From contig NZ_JBAJEX010000001.1 in the NCBI RefSeq assembly GCF_039822265.1, forward strand, positions 186,001 to 250,000: a stretch of 64,000 nt of DNA, given 5' to 3'. A program made the translations under genes and the position numbers. The notes under the pieces were generated by a model. The model was given only the letters and a program-made list of their open reading frames with translations. It was not told where the DNA came from and did not search any database. This stretch comes from Thiobacter sp. AK1. Lineage in GTDB: Bacteria > Pseudomonadota > Gammaproteobacteria > Burkholderiales > Thiobacteraceae. This document shows positions 20,029 to 62,844 of the stretch, piece by piece. The stretch's first letter is position 1. Every line of letters begins with the position of its first letter.

Positions 20029-23000
20029 ATGGTGAAACCACCCCGCCCGTTCTCCCACAAGATGGCTTTGAGCGTCGCCGCCGGCTTCGCGCTGGTGCTC
20101 GCCCTCATGGTGTCGCTGGCAGTGGTCGGCCTGCGCGAGATGGCCTCCATCAACGACCACCTGGAACGCATCGTCAACGAGAACAACGCCAAGGTGGAAC
20201 TCGCCACCGCCATGCGTGATGCGCTGCGTCAGCGCATCATCACCATGCACAGCATCGTCATCGCCCCCGATCCCTTCGAGCGCGAAGAGGCCTTGCAGCG
20301 CTTCTACGAATACGGCATCCAGTTCAACAACGCCCGCCAGAAGCTGGATCGGCTCGCCTTAAGCCGCGAGGAAAAAGCGGTGCTGGAACGCATCCGCACT
20401 CTGGCCAACGTGGCCCAGCCCAAGGTGGTCAGTGGCATCGAGCATGCCATGAACGACGAGCAGGAAGCAGCCCTGCGCATCCTGCGGCAAGACGCCATCC
20501 CCTCCCAGCAGCAGCTGGTGGCGCAACTGGAGGCCATGGTGGATCTGCAGCGTCAGGCAAGCCGGCAGGCCGCCGAGGAGGCCGCCCGGGCCTACCGTCA
20601 AACGGTGTGGTTAATGATCGCCCTTGGAACCAGCCTGGTGCTGCTGGGCATCGTCGTCTCGGGCTGGGTAGTGCGGCACATCAGCCAGCAGACCCAGCAG
20701 ATCGTGCGCGAGCAGGTGAAGTACAAGACCCTGTTCACCACCAACTCCGATGGCATCGTCCTGGTGGCCGATGGCCGCTTCATCGACTGCAATCCCGCCA
20801 CCCTCACCATGTTCGGCTACGACAGCGTGGAAGCCTTCTGCCGCACCACGCCCGCCGAGCTAGGCCCGGCGAGCCAGGCGGACGGCACACCCTCCGGCGA
20901 ATACGGCATGCGCCAAATCGAGAAGGCGATACGCGAGGGCCACTGCCAGTTCGAATGGCTGGGCCGCACGCGCGACGGGCGCGTCTTTCCGGTGGAAATC
21001 GCGCTGCACGCCATGACCCTGGACGACAAGGTGGTCGTGCAGGCCATCATGCGCGACATCACGGAGCGCAAGGAAAGCGAAGCGCGCCTGCGCGCCGCCT
21101 ATGATGCCGCCTTGGAAGCCTCGCGCATCAAGTCCCAATTCGTGGCCAACGTCAGCCACGAAATCCGCACGCCGCTCAACGGCATCATCGGCATGGTGGG
21201 GCTGCTCCTGGACTCGAACCTGGATCCAGAACAGCGGGATTATGCCGAAACCATTCGCTTCTCGTCGGAAGCTTTGCTCACCATCATCAACGACATCCTC
21301 GACTTCGCCAAGATCGAGGCCGGACGTATGGAACTGGAGATCGTTCCCTTCGATCTGCGCGAGACCGTGGAAGAAGCCCTGGAGCTATTCGGCGAGCGCG
21401 CCCATGCCAAGGGTCTGGAGATTGTCTGCGATCTGCCACCCAACTTGCCGACACAGGTATCGGGCGATCCGGCGCGCCTGCGCCAGATCCTGATCAACCT
21501 GGTGGACAACGCCATCAAGTTCTCCCAACAGGGCGACGTGGTGGTGCGCGGTCGAGTCACAGCGGTAAGCGACACTGAACTCGAGCTGCGGATAGAGGTG
21601 AGCGATGCCGGCATCGGCATCAGTCCAGAAGGCATGAAGCGCCTGTTCCAGGCGTTCTCCCAAGCAGACGGCTCCACCACGCGGCGTTATGGCGGCACCG
21701 GACTTGGGCTTGCCATCTCGCGCCAACTCGCCCAGCTCATGGGTGGCGACATGGGGGCGCACAGCACGCCGGGAATGGGCAGCACTTTCTGGTTCACCGC
21801 ACGTGTCAAGCCGGCCGGTCCCGTGACGAATGCCGACGCGGCCCCTGCCCTGCGTGACGTCCCGGTCCTGCTCGCCGTGCCCAACACTCACCTGCGAGAG
21901 GTGCTGGCGCGTCAGCTGGCCCACTGGGGCATGCGAGTGGAAGTCGCCCTCACCAGCGTGGACGCCCACACCAAGTTAAGCCACGCGGCACACCGTGGCG
22001 CGCCCTTGAGCGTCGCCCTGATCGACGTCCAGCTATTGGAGGGAAGTGGTGAGAAGCTGCTTTACGCCCTCGATCAGGATCCGGCTCTGGCGGGTCTCAA
22101 ACAGATCTTGCTCACGGGCATGGCACCCAGGCCTGCGTGGCGTGCCTGGCTCACACCGGGACGACGCGTGCATCTGCCCAAACCGGTGCGCACCGGCCGC
22201 CTGCAGAGTCTGCTGGGCGAGCTTTTGGGCTACGCCCTGCCCGCCCCTGTCCCGGCGGCCCCGGCCAAACATGCCGCGCCGGTGCGCGTGCTGGTCGCGG
22301 AGGACAACGTGGTCAACCAGAAGGTGGTGAGTCACATGCTGCGCAAGCTGGGGGTGCGCGCCGACGTGGTGGCCAACGGCAAGGAGGCTGTGCAAGCCAT
22401 GGCGCGCATTCCCTACGACCTCCTGCTCATGGACTGCCAGATGCCGGAACTGGATGGTCTGGAAGCCACCATCGAGATTCGCCACCGGGAACTCACCCTG
22501 CCCGAGCCGCGGCGCACCCCCATCGTCGCCATGTCCGCCGATGCGCGACCGGAAGCCAAGGCACGCTGCACCGCGGTAGGGATGGACGACTACCTGGTCA
22601 AGCCCGTGCGCCTGCCGGTCCTCGAGCAAACCCTGCGGGCCTGGATCCCATCCTGGCAGCAACCCCAGCAAGACGCCATGAGTGAGGAAAACCCGCCAGG
22701 CCCGGCCATTGACCTGGACAAGGTCCGGCACATGATGAAACGCAATGCCACAGCGGAGCAGGAACTCATCATGCTCTACCTGTCCACCACCCAGGGTTCG
22801 CTGATGGAACTGGCGAACGCGGCGCAACGGGAAGACACAGCAACCTGCGCCGCCAAGGCCCACGAGATCAAGGGTGCCTCGGCCTACGTGGGTGCCCAGG
22901 AGATGCAGCGGCTCGCGGCTGCGGTGGAGCTGGCGGCTCGCAACGGGGAGTGGGAACGGGTACGTGCTGCGACGGAAGAACTGGAAGCGGCGTTCATCCG

Positions 23001-23058
23001 CGTCTGGGCCCAGGTCAACCAGGTGGAAGCCAACCAAGACATCTCGGTTCATCCTTGA
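20029..23058 (+). CDS. Hybrid sensor histidine kinase with two receivers and HPt
   Basis: 1009 aa, BarA-like layout. Membrane helix at about 14-38, helical periplasmic sensor (about 40-190), second helix at about 195-216, PAS domain (about 232-350), HisKA with phospho-His377 ([12 protein letters not shown]), HATPase with DNAIKFS and GGTGLGL, receiver 1 (Asp666), receiver 2 (Asp802 in [13 protein letters not shown]), and HPt His945 ([12 protein letters not shown]). Receiver 1 lacks the N-terminal acidic pair (LLAVPN where DD/ED is expected), so it may not be phosphorylated normally. No response regulator is adjacent. It follows fbpC by 38 bp, so it may be co-transcribed with iron uptake. Confidence 0.93.
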
Positions 23059-23130: not shown

Positions 23131-23179
23131 GCCCTCGCCGCAGCGGCCGCCGGGCCGCTACTGCCGCGCTGGCGAGGGC
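23131..23179. terminator. GC-rich hairpin between convergent genes
   Basis: Outer stem GCCCTCGCC (23131-23139) pairs with GGCGAGGGC (23171-23179), with an inner AGCGGCC/GGCCGCT stem. It lies after the kinase gene and covers the stop codon of the convergent small gene. There is no T-tract, so termination ability is uncertain. Confidence 0.4.
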
Positions 23180-23427
23180 CGCAATCCGGGAAAATGCCCT
23201 TCCACGATGCGCCGCGAGGCGGGGCTGAGATCGCGCGCTTCCCTGCGCCTGAGGCTCGCCTTGACCTCGGCCTGGTACACGGTCTGGATGAGCTGGGATG
23301 CCAGCGCGCGGGCTTCCTGGGGCGTGAGATGAAGCACCGTGCCACCGAAATCCACGCGCACCCGTTCCCCCTCCTCGCCTTCCGCGACACTGACAGCGAC
23401 GGGGCATTCGGTTCTATCCTGATGCAT
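23158..23427 (-). CDS. Small unknown protein under a sigma-54 promoter
   Basis: 89 aa from the ATG at 23427, preceded by GAGGAGAG. Acidic N-terminal half (VAVSVAEGEEGERVRVDFGG), a likely helix with LTPQEARALASQLIQTVYQ, then a basic C-terminal half (KASLRRREARDLSPASRR). No signal peptide or known motif; I do not recognise the family. The shape suits a small regulator or adaptor. It is read from a consensus -24/-12 element at 23470-23485, so expression should depend on RpoN and an enhancer-binding activator. Confidence 0.75.
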   Translation of the reverse strand: MHQDRTECPVAVSVAEGEEGERVRVDFGGTVLHLTPQEARALASQLIQTVYQAEVKASLRRREARDLSPASRRIVEGHFPGLRPSPARQ

Positions 23428-23469
23428 GGCTGAGTCTCTCCTCGTCGATGGATATCCGAGGCAAGAATC

Positions 23470-23485
23470 TGCAAGCGCCGTGCCA
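23470..23485 (-). promoter_or_regulatory. Consensus sigma-54 (RpoN) promoter
   Basis: Minus-strand sequence TGGCACG-N4-TTGCA matches the -24/-12 consensus at every conserved base. GG and GC are 10 nt apart as required. The predicted transcript starts near 23459, about 32 nt before the ATG at 23427. I saw no equally good RpoN site elsewhere in the intergenic sequence. Confidence 0.85.
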
Positions 23486-23599
23486 GAACCCAAGCATGCG
23501 TCCATGCGGCTGATTTGCTGCGGATTTCTGCGCCGGTTCGGGCCATTCGGCGTATGCCCGGCGTGGAAAGTCCGACAGCGCCGTCGGCGGCCCATCCAA

Positions 23600-24790
23600 T
23601 CACAGACGCTTGACGAGGATTTCGCGCACCTCGTCGTCGCTCAGCACGATGGGATTGGTCTTCATGCTGGAGCCACGGCAATGGGCTACGATGCGGGGCA
23701 GGTCGGCCTCGGTCACCCCGTAGGCGGACAGGCGCGGCAGGTCAAGGGCGCGGGTGAGCTCGGCTAGGCTATGCACCAGGAACACCCGCGCGCCCACCGG
23801 CTCCAGATGCGTCTTATTGCGAAACAGCCGTCCGGCCTGGGCATATTTCACCAAGGCGGGGTTGTCCGGATCGCGCGCCTCCATGATGTCGATATTGGCC
23901 CGCGTGGCCTCGGCCACCAGGGTGCCGCAAACCACTCCGTGGGGGATGGGGAAGAAAGCGCCCAAGGGAGAGGCCAGCCCATGCACCGATCCCAGCCCCG
24001 CCTGGGCAAGCGTGATGCCCGACAGTAGGGCGGCGTAGGCCATCTTCGCCCGGCCCTCCGCCGCACGCGGCCCGCCTTCGTACCACTGCAGCAGTCCATC
24101 CCGCGCCGCGGTCAGACCACTCAAGGCAAGCGCATCGGTGAACGGATTGGCCTTGGTGGAGACGAAACTCTCCAGTAACTGGGTGAGCGCATCCATGCCA
24201 TTGGCGGCGATCAGCTGCGGCGGGCAAGACGCCAACAGGTCCGGATCCACCACCGCGTATTCCGCGACCAGTTTCTCGTCGCCAAAAGATTTCTTGTAGC
24301 CGTTCTCGCCGCGCACCGAGAGCACTGCGTTCTTGGTGGCCTCTGAACCCGTTCCAGCGGTAGTGGGAACGGCAATGAAGGGCGTGGCGGGCCCCAGGTA
24401 GGGCCGTTCGGGTCCCACCCCCTCCAGGTGGTCGAGCACGGAATTGCCGGGCTTGAGCAGTCCGGCAATGGCCTTGGCCGCGTCCAGCACGCTGCCGCCG
24501 CCGATACCCAGCACCACCTCGATCGCCTCCGCGCGGAAACGCGCCACCGCCTCGTCCACCAGCTGCGGCGAGGGTTCGCCAGTGACGGTGAGGCGCTGCC
24601 AGCTGATTCCCGCCTGTTTCAGGCCGCTTTCAAAGCGTTCCCAGTGCCCTGCCGCTTCCAGGGAATGGCCGCCGGTGACGATCAGGGCGCGCTGACCGAA
24701 ACGGGCAGCCAGCGCCGGGACCTTCGCGAACATGCCGGCCCCGAACTCGATGCGGGGCAGGCGCGAGACGGAAAAGGGCGCAAGCTTCAT
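23600..24790 (-). CDS. Iron-containing alcohol dehydrogenase
   Basis: 396-aa group III (Fe-ADH) NAD(P)-dependent dehydrogenase, oxidising alcohols or reducing aldehydes; the substrate is not deducible. Nucleotide motif GIGGGSVLDAAKAIAGLL, PTTAGTGSEATKNAV, and metal-ligand histidines in SVHGLASPLGAFFPIPHG. Its ATG overlaps the ABM gene stop (ATGA). Last gene of a four-gene operon; the sigma-54 small gene starts 173 bp downstream. Confidence 0.92.
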   Translation of the reverse strand: MKLAPFSVSRLPRIEFGAGMFAKVPALAARFGQRALIVTGGHSLEAAGHWERFESGLKQAGISWQRLTVTGEPSPQLVDEAVARFRAEAIEVVLGIGGGSVLDAAKAIAGLLKPGNSVLDHLEGVGPERPYLGPATPFIAVPTTAGTGSEATKNAVLSVRGENGYKKSFGDEKLVAEYAVVDPDLLASCPPQLIAANGMDALTQLLESFVSTKANPFTDALALSGLTAARDGLLQWYEGGPRAAEGRAKMAYAALLSGITLAQAGLGSVHGLASPLGAFFPIPHGVVCGTLVAEATRANIDIMEARDPDNPALVKYAQAGRLFRNKTHLEPVGARVFLVHSLAELTRALDLPRLSAYGVTEADLPRIVAHCRGSSMKTNPIVLSDDEVREILVKRL

Positions 24791-62773: not shown

Positions 62774-62844
62774 GAAACCGGCTCCTGCTTTGGGCCCGCT
62801 ACGGGCGACACGAGCGGATAAGCAAACGACATGCCAGAACGTGG

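Follow-up and report, generated by a model that had tools for sequence, protein, structure and literature searches.

A predicted sigma-54 promoter is conserved before a small uncharacterised gene in Thiobacter sp. AK1

In the window, by which we mean the whole 64,000-nucleotide stretch of DNA analysed here, a gene for a protein of 89 residues lies on the minus strand (ATG at 23427, stop at 23158) behind a −24/−12 promoter of the sigma-54 type that recurs before its orthologues. On the strength of sequence comparisons, we consider it probable that this small gene forms a single-gene transcription unit of a sigma-54 regulon under activator control; it is an uncharacterised addition to a known sigma-54 class. 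That an activator-dependent promoter was kept through changes of neighbourhood suggests a function in a defined signal response. Moreover, the promoter offers a testable handle on a small uncharacterised protein, and the identity of the activator would name the signal.

An exact −24/−12 element before the small gene

The predicted promoter, TGGCACG-GCGC-TTGCA at 23485→23470 of the minus strand, was located by motif search. The sequence at this place, TGGCACGGCGCTTGCA, has zero mismatches to TGGCACG-N4-TTGCW, is the sole exact match in the window and ends 42 nt upstream of the ATG, which bears out the full-consensus match claimed in the preliminary description. The same description had placed the promoter at a proper distance from a start codon that has its own ribosome binding site, and GAGGAG can indeed be read at 23443–23438 (minus strand). 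From promoter geometry, transcription is predicted to start at 23459 (minus strand), 12 nt past the C of the −12 element (23471), giving a leader of 32 nt. Taken alone, a single −24/−12 match of this kind would be weak evidence. Sites with at most two mismatches number 13 in the window, below the 16.2 that shuffles would lead one to expect, and genome-wide scoring, which had been proposed as a check, returned 6 exact sites in 2.54 Mb and 43 with at most one mismatch, as compared to 21 for the reversed control, so that about half of the 43 would be chance. We also considered the promoter as coding sequence of a longer ORF, for which an in-frame upstream start in the window would give 145 aa. 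This reading was rejected because a stop stands 8 codons ahead of the ATG in the relative G005, because the distance from site to ATG in the window's own family (35–49 nt) varies by non-multiples of three, and because the TGGCATG of other genomes of g97, a genus of the family f44, is TGGCACG in G339.

Distribution and selection of the small gene

The gene, taken from the ORF listing, is backed by homologues, dN/dS ratios and a structure model. Homologues were present in all ten genomes of the window's own family; among 300 genomes of the order, 21 had one, nine of which belong to the own family. In the family f44, presumably Thiobacillaceae, 68 of 100 genomes carried one. A class-wide search over 369 genomes yielded just two, namely the window's own and one with a doubtful weak match inside a 474-aa frame; the doubtful homologues L104, L105 and L113 were left out of the orthologue counts. 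Plasmid records gave no match, and a literature search on the protein found nothing. A single-protein query against named genomes likewise found nothing, and an alignment query against these genomes returned 14 loci, apparently contigs of the sister genus that were already in the set.

Across nine own-family pairs, dN/dS ranged from 0.07 to 0.28 (0.16 for G000/G001, with dS saturated), and the median for 13 f44 genes was 0.13. By these ratios, the small protein shows purifying selection, with the conserved core L-TP-AR-LA--LI--V--AEV--SL. The acidic half followed by a basic half that had been noticed at first is also apparent from the counts, D/E falling from 8 in residues 1–45 to 4 in residues 46–89 and K/R rising from 4 to 9. 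From the sequences compared, we think it very likely that the gene is genuine and under the control of a signal.

Conservation of the promoter before orthologues

We regard conservation across genomes as the decisive evidence for the predicted promoter. Sites were scored with a weighted consensus of our own making, applied to the 160 nt ahead of the ATG for the own family and the paralogues and to 190 nt for f44. In the own family, all ten loci (one per genome) scored at least 0.84, a value reached by 25 of 1357 control windows, and seven scored at least 0.9 (2 of 1357 control windows); L022, whose contig begins inside the gene and has no upstream region, was dropped before the counts. The homologues of f29 and f35, one genome each, scored 0.97 and 0.94. 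For f44, 30 loci were examined out of the 68 genomes carrying the gene: all 30 reached 0.84 or more (29 of 1584 control windows) and 28 of them 0.9 or more (5 of 1584), the 30 including L140, where a poly-C stretch replaces the upstream region. Near relatives in all these promoter counts are not independent. Because the promoter is conserved across loci when measured against control windows, a chance match is ruled out.

Orthologue conservation had been named as a check in the preliminary description, and the promoter was kept in four families (the own family, f29, f35 and f44), the exceptions being f34, in which it was absent from both homologues, and f46, with a weak site only (0.78). A second copy in G136 (L112) scored 0.81 and has no −12 GC, and nine paralogues, one of them in the window's own genome, carried no sigma-54 site (best score 0.75). 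The protein tree is poorly supported and the promoter label changes four times on it; we therefore call the unit conserved but do not claim that a single clade is proven. In each of the five relatives that were searched, a relaxed pattern, TGGCAYG-N4-YTGCW, gave more sites than its reversed control (22 vs 2 in G001, 17 vs 0 in G005, 16 vs 6 in G339, 18 vs 7 in G333 and 14 vs 3 in G350). The window's genome encodes rpoN, together with ten clear and four weaker matches to sigma-54 activator genes. Together with the promoter before orthologues, the upstream half-sites described below and the purifying selection on the protein, rpoN and the ten activators uphold the RpoN control that had been proposed for the small gene.

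The promoter follows the gene through changing neighbourhoods

In the window, the gene order is clpB, ankyrin, ABM, dehydrogenase and small gene. The iron-containing alcohol dehydrogenase gene (23600–24790, minus strand; Pfam PF00465/PF25137) is the upstream neighbour and lies outside the unit, and a gene for a hybrid histidine kinase (20029–23058, plus strand; 4HB-PAS-HisKA-HATPase-REC-Hpt by Pfam) converges on the small gene. This kinase gene also adjoins the unit in G001 and in f29, where the order is clpB, small gene, DsrE-like gene and kinase. Of the seven sister-genus loci that extend beyond the small gene, five have a DsrE-like gene (PF13686, PF02635) after it, and the kinase gene follows in three of five longer loci (L037–L039; not L035 and L036). 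Across eight sister-genus genomes, the dehydrogenase gene is intact in four and internally deleted in one, and three have no room for it; L037, L038, L040 and L042, the four loci with a lost or internally deleted dehydrogenase gene, have all retained the small gene together with its promoter. As judged by eye, the neighbours of the small gene are either lysA-like and histone-H1-like genes or hemA in f44, and a thioredoxin gene in f35. Since the promoter is kept across these changing surroundings, it follows the gene and not the neighbours.

A putative enhancer array upstream of the promoter

Alignment of the ten own-family upstream regions revealed, besides the invariant TGGCA and TGC at the promoter, an invariant G-CG ... 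AC about 80–100 nt before it. In the window, this stretch corresponds to the putative enhancer half-sites CGACG-N4-TGTCG-N6-CCACG at 23586→23562 (minus strand), which have counterparts in other families. The array lies 77–101 nt before the −24 element, or −103 to −127 from the predicted start. The half-sites expected at enhancer distance were thus found, but not in the end of the alcohol dehydrogenase gene, where the preliminary description had placed them: the conserved array occupies the intergenic gap at 23562–23586, 14–38 nt past the end of that gene. A short AATCA block at 23503–23515 (minus strand), about 30 nt before the promoter, contains an ATCA that is invariant in all ten upstream regions; we tentatively call it IHF-like, taking it to be only a partial match to the IHF consensus.

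In f44, the arrays read TGWCG-N6-CGACA-N4-TGTCG in the genus g64 and TGACGAAGCTTCGTCA in the genus g97. Of the 30 f44 loci, 25 carry the 16-bp palindrome TGWCG-N6-CGWCA without a mismatch, placed at −100 to −103 or −117 to −124 relative to the −24 element. Among 84 sigma-54 sites from five genomes (a subset of the 87 sites found with the relaxed pattern), just three have such a perfect copy, one of the three being at the small gene; the scans of the 84 sites and of the f44 loci covered slightly different stretches. With at most two mismatches, TGACGAAGCTTCGTCA stands at the small gene in seven of eight g97 genomes. In four of these seven it occurs nowhere else and in three at one further place with two mismatches, which is no more than in the reversed control; in G326, also of f44, the sole such match lies about 65 kb from the small gene. 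The own-family copies of the palindrome are degenerate, with 2–3 mismatches. One other promoter, that of L243 in G001, has a closely similar array, TGTCGGAATCCCGACA at −100; the protein encoded behind it has about 570 aa and no Pfam match. From its conservation and position, the array of TGWCG-like half-sites is a likely enhancer.

The proposed mechanism would run as follows. An NtrC-type activator would bind the TGWCG-type half-sites about 100–130 nt upstream of the start, and the DNA, perhaps bent by IHF, would loop toward the promoter. There, sigma-54 RNA polymerase would wait at TGGCACG-N4-TTGCA until ATP hydrolysis opens the complex, so the small gene would stay silent until the signal of the activator comes. 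The product would most likely be an interlocked b3-a dimer with basic tails, acting as an adaptor that binds a partner protein or nucleic acid.

Candidate activators and other readings of the upstream region

Among the ten clear activators of the genome, NCBIfam cut-offs were exceeded by one NtrC and one PrsR, whereas the other eight passed no cut-off among the NCBIfam families shown. PrsR and PilR are candidate activators of the small gene. That PrsR switches the gene on together with PEP-CTERM surface proteins, as part of a PEP-CTERM regulon, is possible, if rather unlikely. PrsR is encoded in the genome (TIGR02915, 752 bits), and paralogues of the small protein sit in an exosortase/exopolysaccharide cluster. 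Haft 2006 (PMC1569441) describes a 17-nt motif with TTTACA at its end (motif 1) upstream of PEP-CTERM genes, at a mean of 63 nt before the −24/−12 element and with spacings of 32–92 nt; a second report describes an Aquincola PEP-CTERM gene (pepA) as experimentally RpoN-dependent (PMC9850573). The window's array holds a TGTCGGA and is spaced 76 nt from the −24 element, within this range, and two own genes for apparently secreted proteins (L053 and L070) combine sigma-54 sites with the motif TGTCGGA...TTTACA. Against this reading, the TTTACA half of motif 1 is absent upstream of the small gene in the window and in G333, G339 and G001, and in these three relatives motif 1 is found at other sigma-54 promoters instead. 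Sigma-54/NtrC-type regulons such as that of the PEP-CTERM genes under RpoN and the predicted PrsR (PMC1569441, PMC9850573) share with the small gene the single-gene unit, the −24/−12 element and activator-type sites no more than about 130 nt from the start, but the gene of the window encodes a small, probably cytosolic protein instead of a secreted one, and its half-sites are arranged differently.

PilR, the activator of type IV pili, recognises (C/G)TGTC, and its role here, which would tie the protein to pili or surface life, appears doubtful. Pilin genes, recognised by eye from their GFTLIELMIVVAIIGILAA start, have sigma-54 sites in the own genome (L052) and in relatives (L169, L192 and L205), with TGACG/GTCA and TGCCG half-sites upstream of the genes. 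These upstream regions are nevertheless not among the sites bearing the palindrome of the small-gene type with 0–2 mismatches, the own pilA showing 3. NifA binds TGT-N10-ACA, and the palindromes at the small gene can be read as TGT-N10-ACA-like, as can sites borne by nif-like genes (by eye) in G005; the degeneracy of the array within the window's family makes NifA an unlikely activator.

The palindrome might instead be a mere terminator of the preceding gene, with the activator site elsewhere, a reading that we consider improbable. In the Thiobacillus-like genus g97, the palindrome is by eye embedded in a longer stem that pairs in spite of its variable sequence and may double as the terminator of the preceding histone-H1-like gene, and in the window the array lies 14–38 nt past the dehydrogenase gene. 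A terminator does not, however, account for the missing run of more than three T after the palindrome in the window and in G001, nor for half-sites that persist in sister genomes that lost the dehydrogenase gene and in the g64 genome of L154, where the upstream gene reads away (L115). Hardly credible is a chance −24/−12 match before a spurious ORF, for which speak the reversed control with half as many sites genome-wide and the existence of overlapping ORFs, and against which promoter and protein are both conserved.

Family and predicted fold of the small protein

Turning to the product of the predicted sigma-54 unit, the gene had been described as unrecognised, and it does remain without a fitting Pfam or NCBIfam family. 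Searches of single members gave scattered matches (best E 0.009 in Pfam and 0.004 in NCBIfam), and DUF6907 (PF21848) reached 14.8 bits, under its curated cut-off of 26. In PHROGs, the nameless phrog_22972 matched 4 of 13 members (best E 4e-5) and phrog_15936, labelled a membrane protein, 6 of 13 (best E 5e-4); fold matches among viral proteins reached E 0.016 at best and were to phage proteins that are of comparable size and uncharacterised. A PDB sequence match to a PTS IIA helical protein (E 0.0019, and 0.08 with a wider profile) was, like weaker ones, taken as helix similarity. No signal peptide or membrane segment is seen by eye, and the protein is thus probably cytosolic.

The AlphaFold2 model has a b-b-b-a core with strands at residues 10–17, 20–27 and 30–34 and a helix at 36–66; block means of pLDDT are 90–97 for residues 11–60 and below 50 for the basic C-terminal tail. 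A model of an orthologue shows the same core with a longer helix. Foldseek against the PDB gave nothing at E ≤0.001. In a structural comparison, COMM domains were the top rows for both models (Z 5.6, 2.6 Å over 62 residues; Z 5.9, 2.7 Å over 70), with PUR repeats at Z 4.2–4.7 and PC4 at Z 3.9 and 3.1; for the second model, coiled-coil helices (Z 5.0–5.4) were tied with COMM by the rule of the tool. All matches lie at Z <6, and a Z under 8 can reflect a common arrangement. The COMM and PUR matches are mutually consistent, since COMM domains are described as resembling Pur-alpha repeats in fold and dimer (PMC6089597). The COMM domains of COMMD9 (6bp6) and of a bacterial COMMD-like protein (9q6a) share the predicted b-b-b-a order (Z 5.5–5.9 over 61–70 residues), but the small protein has neither a sequence match nor the N-terminal helical domain, and Z is too low for kinship; the COMM profile in Pfam gave no match at E ≤0.5 among 13 members, in a search whose filters may drop weak ones. 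With PUR and PC4 proteins (8chw, 3nm7 and 1pcf) it would have in common a sheet and a helix that dimerises, as well as a basic tail, whereas it is modelled with three strands only and has no sequence match. From the models, we infer a homodimer with an adaptor or nucleic-acid-binding role.

Paralogues and exopolysaccharide clusters

Paralogues in exopolysaccharide clusters point to where a phenotype might lie. In the sister genus, one paralogue (L044) stands between an EpsL-like gene and EpsE, followed by EpsF, EpsG and XrtB, with EpsD nearby; EpsE, EpsF, EpsG and XrtB score over their cut-offs, and the EpsL-like gene reaches 208 bits against a cut-off of 275. A second one (L046) has the same XrtB/exopolysaccharide setting by eye, and others (L045, L050 and the own L150) are near a NahK/ErcS-like kinase, under its cut-off, or near LuxR-type regulators. 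The XrtB/exopolysaccharide clusters of sister genomes thus contain paralogues of the small protein, but these have no sigma-54 site, whereas the sigma-54 gene is outside the cluster, and in the window it does not adjoin exopolysaccharide genes. The exopolysaccharide link rests on paralogues that themselves have no sigma-54 promoter. A role as adaptor in surface or exopolysaccharide physiology is put forward tentatively, as a possibility below even chances. Bolder, and improbable when taken as a whole, is the idea of an unrecognised family of minimal bacterial COMM/PUR-like dimeric adaptors, to date confined to the order of the window. One branch would depend on a travelling sigma-54 enhancer unit and others would sit in exopolysaccharide clusters and two-component loci, and surface-signal activators would in this way govern how much of a small regulator of exopolysaccharide or envelope is made.

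Other sigma-54 sites in the window and in relatives

The site before the small gene had been called the only strong sigma-54 target, which does not hold, as the window contains a second strong site, TGGCATG-TCGT-TTGCT at 62836→62821 (minus strand), ending 47 nt before an ORF that is FliK-like by eye. A similar FliK-like ORF in G005 (L218) has a sigma-54 site at the same distance. Three pairs of loci (L243/L259, L168/L260 and L235/L261) encode proteins of about 450–600 aa that are related by eye and each have a sigma-54 site near the start; the proteins of L259 and L260 had no Pfam match. The protein of L059, in the window's own genome, matched nothing in Pfam or NCBIfam at E ≤0.01, and this protein of 60–62 aa with a sigma-54 promoter is common to the own genome (L059, G000:C5:122836), G001 and G005 (L239 and L219).
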